Origin: Thioalkalivibrio sp. ALJ24
GTDB lineage: Bacteria; Pseudomonadota; Gammaproteobacteria; Ectothiorhodospirales; Ectothiorhodospiraceae
Direction: 5' to 3'
Length of the DNA: 64,000 nucleotides
Assembly (NCBI RefSeq): GCF_000377785.1
Contig: NZ_KB898726.1
Span: 27,801 to 91,800, forward strand
In this document: one piece after another, positions 36,551-39,018 of the stretch
Position numbering within the stretch: the first letter of the stretch is position 1
How the letters are laid out: each line of letters begins with the position of its first letter
Made by a program: the position numbers and the translations under genes
The notes under the pieces: generated by a model
Seen by the model: the letters and a program-made list of their open reading frames with translations, nothing else
The model's database searches: none
Told to the model about the DNA's origin: nothing

Positions 36551-38500
36551 ATGAACTTCTTCGAACAACAGGACCGGGCACAGCGCCGCACCCGGGTCCT
36601 GCTGGGCCTGTTCTCGCTGGCGGTACTCGCCATCGTGGTGGCGATGAACCTGCTCGCGCTGCTGTTCCTCGGGCACGATGCCACCGCGGCGCCGGATGAC
36701 CCGCTGTTCTCCCGCAGCATGTTCGAGGACAACCTCGAACTGATGTTCTGGGTGACCCTGTTCACCATCGTCCTGATCGGCGGGGCCAGCCTGTACCGGG
36801 CGTCCTCGCTGCGCGGTGGCGGGGGGCAGGTCGCGCAGGAACTCGGCGGCACCCGCATCGAACCCGACACCCGGGATCCGCTGCGGCGGCGTCTGGTGAA
36901 CGTCGTCGAGGAGATCGCGATCGCCTCCGGCGTACCGGTGCCGGAGATCTACGTACTGGAGCAGGAGAGCGGCATCAACGCATTCGCCGCGGGGCATTCC
37001 ACCGGTGATGCCGCGGTGGCGGTGACCCGCGGCGCACTGGAGACCCTCGACCGCAACGAGCTGCAGGGGGTAGTGGCCCACGAATTCGGGCACATCCTCA
37101 ACGGGGACATGCGCCTGAACATCCGTCTGGTCGGGATCCTCTACGGGATCCTGGTGCTGGCCCTGGTGGGGCAGCGGGTGATGGTCGCGATGCGCTTCTC
37201 GCGCGACAGCCGCAATGCGGCCGGTCTGCTGGCCGCCGGGCTGGCGCTGCTGATCGTGGGCTACATCGGGCTGTTCTTCGGCCGCTGGATCCGCGCCTCG
37301 GTGTCGCGCCAGCGCGAATACCTGGCGGATGCGTCGGCGGTGCAGTTCACCCGGCACCCCGACGGGATTGCCGGGGCACTGAAGAAGATCGGTGCGCGGC
37401 ATGCGCGCATGGATGCCGATTTCGAAGAAGTGGGACACATGCTGTTCGCCAGTGGCGGGCTGGGGCGGATGTTCGCCACGCACCCGCCGCTGGAGGATCG
37501 GATCCGTGCCATCGAGCCGAATTTCGATCCGACGGAGTTCGAAACCATCGCTCGACGCATGCGCGAGCAGACGGAGGCGGAACAGGCCGACGCCGAAACG
37601 GAAGAGGGCAGTGAGGAATCCCGGCGCGGTCCCGGCGGGCTGATGCTCGATGCGGACAACCTCGCGGACGGGATCGCCGATCCCGGGCTGGCGCAGATCC
37701 TGGGCGCCGGCATGCTGATGGCCGCGATGCCGGGTCCGCTGGAACAGGCTGCACACAGCGACGGCTGGGCCGCCGAGGTTATCCTCTACCTGCTGATGAA
37801 CGCCGATCCCGAGGTGCGCGAGCAACAGCGTCTGCTGGTCGCCGAGAAGCGCGGCGGTGACAGCGAACGGCGCGTGGGCCAGCTGCTGGACATGGTCCCC
37901 GAGCTGCGCGACGACCTGCGCATCCCGCTGCTGGAGATCGCCTTCCCGGTGCTCCGGCGGCACCCGCGAGAGGAGCGCGAGGCCCTGCAGGAGCTGGTCG
38001 AGCAGCTGATCCATGCCGACGGACGGGTGTCGGCGTTCGAATACGCCCTCGGGCGTCTGCTGAACCGTCACCTGATGGATGTCGAAAAGCCGGGGGATGA
38101 CGGGGCAGGCGGGCGCGGGCGGCTGGAGCGCCACGGCGACGAGGTGCGCTTCCTGCTGGCGGTACTGGCACGTCACGGTCATCCGGGCGATCCGGATGCC
38201 GGCCGTGCGGCGCTGGCCGCCGGGATCGCCCGCATCGAGGAACGTGAACCGGCGACCGTGGATTTCCCCGAGGCATGGACCGAGTCCGAGGGCAGCCGGG
38301 CCTGGGCGAATGTCCTCGATCGGGTGCTGGAGAGCCTCGACGGCCTGCGCATGGCGGACAAGGAACGCCTGGTCCGCGCGATGCTGACGACCGTGACCCA
38401 TGGCGGGCAGGTGCGCACGGCCGAGGTCGAACTGCTGCGTGCGATGGCGGCTTCCATGCATGTGCCGCTGCCGCTGGCGGAATTCGCCGAGACCGGCTAG
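36551..38500 (+). CDS. M48-family metalloprotease with long C-terminal extension
   Basis: 649 residues, more than twice the length of HtpX. Two N-terminal membrane helices (about 17-41 and 65-81) precede the zinc motif HEFGH at 177-181. Two more helices follow, then the second metal region (REYLADASAVQFT). From about residue 340 a mostly helical extension begins; its segment IHADGRVSAFEYALGRLLNRH looks TerB-like. It is probably an inner-membrane quality-control protease working with LemA. The stop TAG ends at the first base of the palindromic element, so the insertion may define the C-terminus. Confidence 0.88.
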   Translation: MNFFEQQDRAQRRTRVLLGLFSLAVLAIVVAMNLLALLFLGHDATAAPDDPLFSRSMFEDNLELMFWVTLFTIVLIGGASLYRASSLRGGGGQVAQELGGTRIEPDTRDPLRRRLVNVVEEIAIASGVPVPEIYVLEQESGINAFAAGHSTGDAAVAVTRGALETLDRNELQGVVAHEFGHILNGDMRLNIRLVGILYGILVLALVGQRVMVAMRFSRDSRNAAGLLAAGLALLIVGYIGLFFGRWIRASVSRQREYLADASAVQFTRHPDGIAGALKKIGARHARMDADFEEVGHMLFASGGLGRMFATHPPLEDRIRAIEPNFDPTEFETIARRMREQTEAEQADAETEEGSEESRRGPGGLMLDADNLADGIADPGLAQILGAGMLMAAMPGPLEQAAHSDGWAAEVILYLLMNADPEVREQQRLLVAEKRGGDSERRVGQLLDMVPELRDDLRIPLLEIAFPVLRRHPREEREALQELVEQLIHADGRVSAFEYALGRLLNRHLMDVEKPGDDGAGGRGRLERHGDEVRFLLAVLARHGHPGDPDAGRAALAAGIARIEEREPATVDFPEAWTESEGSRAWANVLDRVLESLDGLRMADKERLVRAMLTTVTHGGQVRTAEVELLRAMAASMHVPLPLAEFAETG

Positions 38501-38782
38501 GGAAACACTGATCAATGTGCACGCTCGCGTTGGTGCTCGGGGTTTTCCGAGACCAGGCGCGGTGCGCAGCCGTTAGTGGTTCTACCGGCAAGGGCCGCAA
38601 CGCAGGATCGGGGAACCCGGATTGCCAACCCCTGAAGTGGCTCGGCCGCCCGTTGTTATCAAAAACGGGCGCGCGCGGCGTTGCGGCTCCCTTGTGCAGA
38701 ATGACTGCACGGCGGTCCCCGCGCCCTGTTCGCACGCAAAAGCGACTCGAGCGCGAGCGTGCACATTGACCAGTGTTTTCCC
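38500..38782. mobile_element. 283-bp MITE-like imperfect palindrome
   Basis: The ends are near-identical inverted repeats of about 30 bases: gggaaacactgatcaatgtg and, on the other strand, gggaaaacactggtcaatgt, both continuing into gcacgctcgcg. The complementarity continues less perfectly to 38603 on the left and 38678 on the right, ending in a shared aaggg..ccgcaacgc. The centre (38604-38677) holds a small hairpin CGCCCGTT/AACGGGCG (38647-38671). No protein is encoded. No clear target duplication is visible. A non-autonomous transposable element or large palindromic repeat is the best reading; the parent transposon is unknown. Confidence 0.6.
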
Positions 38783-38810
38783 GGGGAATGCCAGCGGCGC
38801 AATGAAGCGC

Positions 38811-38816
38811 TATCAT
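38811..38816 (+). promoter_or_regulatory. -10-like TATCAT before tRNA-Leu
   Basis: TATCAT lies 12 bases before the mature tRNA 5' end, a proper distance for a tRNA promoter. No convincing -35 is seen; the region upstream is the palindromic element, which would have replaced whatever lay there. Confidence 0.4.
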
Positions 38817-38828
38817 CCGCGCTTTCGT

Positions 38829-38915
38829 GGGGGCGTGGCGAAACAGGTAGACGCAGCAGACTTAAAATCTGCCGGCCGCAAGGCCGTGCCGGTTCGAGTC
38901 CGGCCGTCCCCACCA
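38829..38915 (+). tRNA. tRNA-Leu (TAA)
   Basis: 87 bases with encoded CCA. Acceptor stem GGGGGCG/CGTCCCC (one G-T pair), anticodon stem-loop GCAGACTTAAAATCTGC with anticodon TAA, long variable arm CGGCCGCAAGGCCG, and T-arm GGTTCGAGTCC. Class II structure fits tRNA-Leu. Confidence 0.96.
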
Positions 38916-39018
38916 GAATTCAACCAGCTCGGCCGGGTACCGGCGTGCTGCTTTCCCGTTCGGGCGATTCGGGGCATGATGGAACCGCAGGGTCCCGATG
39001 GCGGGAGGCATGTTGGTT

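Follow-up and report, generated by a model that had tools for sequence, protein, structure and literature searches.

The 280-bp palindrome that separates a peptidase family M48 gene from a tRNA-Leu gene in the window (the whole 64,000-nucleotide stretch of DNA analysed here) is a non-autonomous transposable element, a MITE, and its interior, as recognised by covariance models, is the form taken in Thioalkalivibrio, a soda-lake bacterium, by a widespread two-arm core, in which two inverted hairpins of about 77 nt surround a small central hairpin. We hold the complete reading, that of a Thioalkalivibrio MITE inserted at YTAR targets, often CTAG, probably moved by an IS5-family transposase and carrying a version of this core, to be very probable. 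The features concerned are the following.

36551–38500, + strand: gene of a peptidase of family M48, 649 aa, ending in the TAG of the target
38497–38500, + strand: left 4-bp target copy CTAG, which contains the M48 TAG stop
38501–38780, + strand: palindromic MITE, 280 bp, one of five near-full-length copies in its own genome (copy alignment)
38501–38529, + strand: left terminal inverted repeat, 29 nt (inverted-repeat search and alignment)
38541–38617, + strand: arm I, a conserved hairpin with the motifs AAGGCG ... CAAG ... CAACGC (model R1, 80.3 bits, E 4.4e-20)
38629–38640: centre between the arms, degenerate in this copy, where other copies carry the small hairpin CCCCGAAGGGG
38649–38669: optional extension hairpin module of about 15 bp, present in some copies only (alignment of 139 copies)
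38669–38737, − strand: arm II, the other conserved hairpin, in the opposite orientation to arm I (model R2, 40.8 bits, E 9.5e-9)
38752–38780, − strand: right terminal inverted repeat, 29 nt, with two differences from the left one (inverted-repeat search)
38781–38784, + strand: right target copy CCGG, probably decayed, two transitions from CTAG (judged from the alignment)
38785–38805, + strand: what is probably left of the ancestral C-terminal codons and their TGA (GGA ATG ... TGA), collinear with the nearest relative's locus, L170 (by-eye comparison)
38788–38816, + strand: promoter-like site for the tRNA gene (ATGCCA, 17 nt, TATCAT), outside the element (consensus match)
38829–38915, + strand: tRNA-Leu, anticodon TAA

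Boundaries of the element and its insertion site

By aligning 32 copies and inspecting the ends, we placed the element at 38501–38780. A preliminary description, made from the letters of the window, had given it 283 bp, at 38500–38782; the palindrome is present as described, with boundaries that moved to the 280 bp just given, and the G at 38500, which had been taken for the first base of the element as well as the last of TAG, turned out to be part of the CTAG target. Likewise, the far end does adjoin the tRNA-Leu gene, at a distance of 48 nt from its start rather than 46. The near-identical ends at the close of the M48 gene are real: the 30-nt inverted repeat 38500–38529/38752–38781 is 93% complementary, and the two 29-nt ends of the element itself carry 2 mismatches, at positions 2 and 11. 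Folding prediction, proposed as a check, bears the palindrome out for both nucleic acids, since the RNA fold of 38490–38790, at −169 kcal/mol, is far more stable than the shuffled average of −126 (z −8.5) and was equalled by none of 100 shuffles, and the DNA fold of the element has a z of −9.6, equalled by none of 200. In the lowest-energy RNA fold, the two halves pair along their length, and each half is also able to fold separately. The element contains an 84-codon ORF, and its copies differ by single-base changes and by length changes of about 15 bp.

At the nearest relative's locus (L170, in genome G007), the M48 protein is 87% identical to that of the window and ends in ...EFDAGEEGMSSAD followed by TGA, 24 nt before the tRNA. 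The window protein ends in ...EFAETG followed by TAG, and on the 3' side of the element stands GGA ATG CCA GCG GCG CAA TGA, whose distance from the tRNA is likewise about 24 nt. Compared by eye, the two loci are collinear when the target is read as CTAG, the TAG of one facing GAG at the other. The sequences thus compared point, as the most likely course, to a nonsense change that shortened the M48 tail and created the CTAG that the element would later have used. Because the TAG lies within the CTAG that the transposon would duplicate, the stop should predate the insertion, and we consider it most likely that the TAG stop is the older of the two. The proposal that the insertion truncated the protease thus does not hold as it was worded, the TAG belonging to a pre-existing target, yet the window protein is indeed about seven residues shorter than its nearest relative's.

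The position of the element directly behind a stop codon finds an explanation in its target sequence. In the window, YTAR sites number only 12 (3 CTAG, 2 TTAA, 4 TTAG, 3 CTAA), and CTAG occurs 3 times against 189 expected from base composition. Since YTAR targets are very scarce in this GC-rich stretch and are often stop codons, the element abuts a TAG. By a heuristic ORF test, a stop codon starts 2–4 nt before the element in 12 of 39 cases in one relative (G029) and in 2 of 5 in the element's own genome, the window copy included. As for an altered tRNA promoter, also suggested initially, this is mostly unsupported: the sole promoter-like site, at 38788–38816, is outside the element, a TATGAT or TATCAT box precedes the tRNA (comparison of nine relatives with a correctly oriented junction), and the insertion replaced just the sequence upstream of the presumed −35 of the tRNA promoter.

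Copies, targets and a putative IS5-family partner

The search for further copies, which the preliminary description had called for, returned 12 matches in the element's own genome, five of them near full length. Matches were present in 17 of the 58 genomes searched, 16 of which are among the 30 genomes of its own genus (own genome counted). At least 39 copies, dispersed over unrelated sites, occur in G029, in which a 22-nt end pattern has 99 matches against 0 for the reversed control. From these 99 matches we assembled 39 inward-facing pairs; 21 matches stayed unpaired, of which 11, in 10 regions, were inspected. In named genomes, 108 stretches contained an exact 33-nt end pattern, and all 80 of those given with a name come from Thioalkalivibrio; as each of the 108 has at least one exact end, they were excluded from the count of end symmetry given below.

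Among the 39 elements of G029, YTAR flanks were found on the left in 22 and on the right in 15. The left flanks comprise CTAG in 9, TTAG in 7, TTAA in 4 and CTAA in 2, and the 4-bp flanks are identical in 7 of the 39, which supports target-site duplication for the family; the window copy has the decayed pair CTAG/CCGG. Elements of G029 show no bias towards convergent gene ends (4 convergent, 5 divergent and 30 tandem of 39, from heuristic ORF output). At the orthologous site, an M48 match of near full length with tRNA-Leu(UAA) alongside occurs in 14 other genomes, and all of them leave too little space for the element, so that the empty site sought in relatives was found in 14 of 14. Together with the dispersed copies, the YTAR flanks and an IS5-family relative with similar ends, this bears out the identification of the palindrome as a MITE; the contrary outcome, a palindrome with no other copies that is conserved as a normal terminator, did not arise.

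The target copies of G029 (L224–L262) decay asymmetrically: CCAG stands on the left in 5 of 39 and CTGG on the right in 9 of 39, against none for CTGG on the left and one for CCAG on the right. Read outward, both decay forms amount to CTAGG becoming CCAGG, a change that Vsr very-short-patch repair would produce.

For the parent transposase with the same ends, which the initial description had proposed to look for, a candidate was found. The element's own genome encodes an intact IS5-family transposase ORF of 321 aa (L264:618-1583), which scores 317.3 bits with NF033581 (cut-off 140); PF01609 and PF05598 also match above cut-off, which identifies the putative partner as an IS5-type DDE transposase. 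The left end of the element is identical to the own-genome IS copies L051 and L264 at 16 of 17 terminal bases and to the IS5-family element L052 of a relative at 17 of 17, so that the 29-nt end has 16–17 of its first 17 nt in common with IS5-family elements. Comparison of the interior with L051 and L052 gave no convincing match beyond the ends. The agreement extends over no more than about 17 of the 29 end bases, so the IS is a candidate mobiliser, not a proven parent, and its transposase would probably move the MITE in trans. Near-full-length transposase matches occur in just 5 of the 30 genus genomes searched, and several MITE-rich genomes have none, so that many carriers of the MITE are without a visible partner.

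Some further arrangements of ends and arms were seen during these searches. A second MITE subtype in G029 (L286:1552-1861) has ends that are like the opposite end of the candidate IS, GGAGACGCTGATTGAATCGC, and a similar end is also present in L197. At L263:355-584, also in G029, inverted R1 arms (44.3 and 29.4 bits) adjoin an IS5-family element. We rejected a pair of end matches 4.9 kb apart in G029 (L286) as an autonomous element, because it encloses the other MITE subtype and none of the transposase matches of G029. In another genome (G157), with 87 matches of TATTAACCCGG ends, no pair lay 1–3 kb apart and no autonomous element was found within that range; pairs of these ends also exist at 3.4 and 4.9 kb.

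A two-arm core within and beyond Thioalkalivibrio

The interior was aligned for 139 of the 148 co-oriented copies, nine copies shorter than 260 bp being left out. The copies can fold into two inverted hairpin arms that flank a small central hairpin, and optional hairpin modules of about 15 bp bring their lengths to near 266, 281, 296 and 310. RNAalifold predicted 99 pairs on 35 copies, 16 of them with compensatory change. Sites were clustered by orthology, leaving out loci L006–L012 (partial or other matches), and in 16 of the 22 clusters the elements differ in length by at least 10 bp, often by 15 or 30, as if modules had been swapped without the element leaving its site. Inversion of the element at an orthologous site, apparent in one of the 22 clusters (L224/L093), was discarded because, at a flank identity of only 0.81, independent insertions on two occasions are more likely.

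The terminal stem of the 139 copies has 59 G-U against 60 A-C pairs when the count takes in the 27 of 28 positions at which a standard pair is the most frequent, and 61 against 122 over all 28, A-C being commonest at the 28th. Selection on an RNA strand in this stem was rejected, because the G-U excess among the pairs chosen by RNAalifold vanished when every helix position was counted. In arm II of the Thioalkalivibrio copies, the ratio of G-U to A-C is 97:11 (helix P4b), on the antisense strand of the arm and in a register picked by RNAalifold on that strand.

Within the class, 15 of 229 genomes, two of them Thioalkalivibrio, had matches to a 75-nt arm used as query. We fetched 17 regions from seven genomes and wrote out the arm layout for 12 elements of five of these; these five other genomes have the same layout with different ends, and it was not seen in the fetched regions of G137 and G182. 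Covariance models R1 and R2 were built from nine and eight arms, respectively. At E ≤1e-4, R1 has matches in 100 of 369 genomes from the class, in 76 of 271 genera, counting the genomes that supplied seeds. In the phylum sample it matched 65 of 398 genomes, in 44 of 213 genera, and 34 of these genomes are outside the class. The two samples overlap by a few genomes, and the E-values are rough owing to a short calibration, but in 77 of the 100 class genomes the best E is still under 1e-10. At 35 of 43 fetched loci, a favourable sample of best matches, the first arm is accompanied by another on the opposite strand, with a spacing of 26–30 nt in 22 of the 28 loci measured. The terminal repeats around these arms are of several unlike types (GGAAACACTGAT, TATTAACCCGGCAA, GCCCTGCCCTT, AGTACTC, GTGTCCTGTC/GTGTAGTG and others).

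The structure of the arms is well supported by their variation. In an alignment of 65 arms, standard pairs fill 94.7% of the pair cells, against 66.0% in shuffled and at most 42.0% in slid versions; both sides change in 26 of the 27 base pairs, and covariation is 0.772 against 0.202 in the control. Having been fitted to the model, this alignment leans towards structure, yet it stands well apart from both controls. The loop motifs AAGGC, AAG and AACGC are nearly fixed while the stems change with compensation: AAGGC is present in 60 of the 65 arms and AACGC or AACAC in 61, and among 34 partner arms that R1 had not chosen the figures are 28 and 32. The G-U:A-C ratio is 144:13 in the arms, 64:26 in those not selected by R1 and 115:11 in seedless genomes, all counted in arms found by models that favour G-U.

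No curated Rfam family matched the element at its gathering score. For 38300–39000, only the tRNA scored above it; MIR918 on the palindrome reached 33 bits (E 5.9e-4) against a gathering score of 268, and 11 loci from other genomes gave three matches, all below gathering scores.

Possible roles of the core and related elements

MITEs are usually regarded as a pair of ends around expendable filler. Here, across many genera, the core keeps its loops and refolds its stems even as the ends vary, and the role of a MITE interior thereby becomes a testable question. Since the ends of these MITEs differ, they probably depend on different transposases, and since the module rather than the transposon ends is conserved, it probably serves the element or the host. 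We lean somewhat towards an uncatalogued two-arm module that is found in many proteobacterial genera, forms the common core of differently ended MITEs and probably functions as folded RNA or single-stranded DNA. The preponderance of G-U over A-C in the modelled arms suggests that a folded single strand acts in the AAGGC...AACGC orientation; the G-U excess of arm II on the antisense strand speaks against a plain sense-strand interpretation. Since the arms are inverted, an arm may act whatever the orientation of the insertion: a single strand entering from either side would first meet an arm in the AAGGC...AACGC orientation. Such an arm, we infer, would act as RNA in read-through transcripts or as single-stranded DNA.

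Between these two forms, we rate an RNA role slightly above a role as single-stranded DNA, and retain the explanation that supposes no function. That the arms act as RNA, in stability, processing or read-through termination, with insertions tolerable either way round, is a tentative proposal, consistent with the sense arm being presented first from either side, with the G-U bias, and with the frequent position of elements directly behind stop codons; this position is, however, accounted for by the target sequence, ascertainment favours G-U, and the arm II excess of Thioalkalivibrio is on the opposite strand. In REP/RAYT and attC systems, a protein binds folded single-stranded DNA. By analogy, the arms may be recognition sites of a transposition or recombination protein of this kind, as the conserved bases of the internal loops, the REPIN-like pair of inverted hairpins and the wobble-pair bias would have it; the YTAR flanks of the Thioalkalivibrio copies, on the other hand, are those expected of IS5-type DDE transposition, and we consider this role rather unlikely.

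Equally doubtful is a plain IS remnant with a functionless interior, whose arms are kept paired by template-switch correction alone. Quasipalindrome (template-switch) correction copies one arm onto the other, and the ends of the G029 elements do resemble each other: over their 22 nt (position 13 omitted), 25 derived changes are common to both ends against about 4 expected for independent ends, with 48 one-sided changes; the ends of one element differ at 1.49 positions and those of different elements at 2.88, and none of 10000 permutations gave so low a within-element value. The terminal stem, moreover, is without G-U excess. The shared end changes nevertheless fit arm-to-arm correction or founder subfamilies, and the latter could account for many of them, as 22 of the 25 also occur in other G029 elements. 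Further against a remnant are the interior, without convincing match to L051 and L052 beyond the ends, and the loop motifs, which are kept across genera while the stems turn over; correction alone does not fix loops. Finally, an ordinary terminator or a structured 3' end conserved at the locus would agree with a strong hairpin right behind a stop codon, but it is extremely improbable: the hairpin is missing at all 14 orthologous junctions and copies are dispersed at other loci, which excludes a conserved terminator, and intrinsic terminator-like sites (a stem and then a T run) did not exceed chance, with 1 site against a shuffled mean of 0.7 (sd 0.9).

Several known systems share some of these properties. 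Integron attC sites are imperfect hairpins recognised by their structure; they are like the arms in being hairpins with conserved unpaired bases and differ in core sequence. MITEPsy1 of Pseudomonas syringae pv. phaseolicola is, in the part of its description available, a putative IS5-type MITE that duplicates CTAG or YTAA, with the related IS5-family ISPsy2 in the genome and homologues reported in other genera (PMC3189936). Our element is similar in its IS5 type, its CTAG duplication and the related IS5-family element in the genome, whereas MITEPsy1, compared by size, ends and description, measures 100 nt, has the ends GGAAGGTCTGAAAAAGCC and has no two-arm core in that part of the text (PMC3189936). 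The R0 and R2 repeats of Pseudomonas fluorescens SBW25 are likewise short elements with inverted repeats, for which a MITE nature and mobilisation by resident ISs have been proposed; they differ in size (89 and 110 bp) and were compared by description (PMC2718517). REPs and REPINs are, from partial texts, dispersed palindromes like the element (PMC3733652; PMC3116915), and the Thioalkalivibrio REPs GTAG-1 and GTAG-5 are on record; however, REPs are described there as being 20–40 bp long and RAYT-linked (PMC3733652), whereas the arms of the element measure about 77 nt and have different conserved motifs, and the target flanks are of the DDE type. The available portions of PMC3189936, PMC10969869, PMC2718517, PMC3733652 and PMC4465626 do not describe the two-arm core, and no description of the element or its core was found in the literature searched, which is weak evidence of absence, most subscription journals lying outside it.

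The arm model could let annotators mark a repeat that is unmatched in Rfam in about a quarter (100 of 369) of the sampled class genomes. A DNA search with one two-arm element returned four plasmid records, from Azotobacter (two), Pseudomonas and Halomonas. The Azotobacter chroococcum plasmid pAcX50f carries one R1 arm (72.6 bits), with no annotated feature there, and Halomonas sp. PA16-9, whose record is almost unannotated, carries both arms (72.1 and 44.9 bits). At another locus (L326:1501-1866), a two-arm element has a spacer of 210 nt between its arms, against the usual length of about 27.
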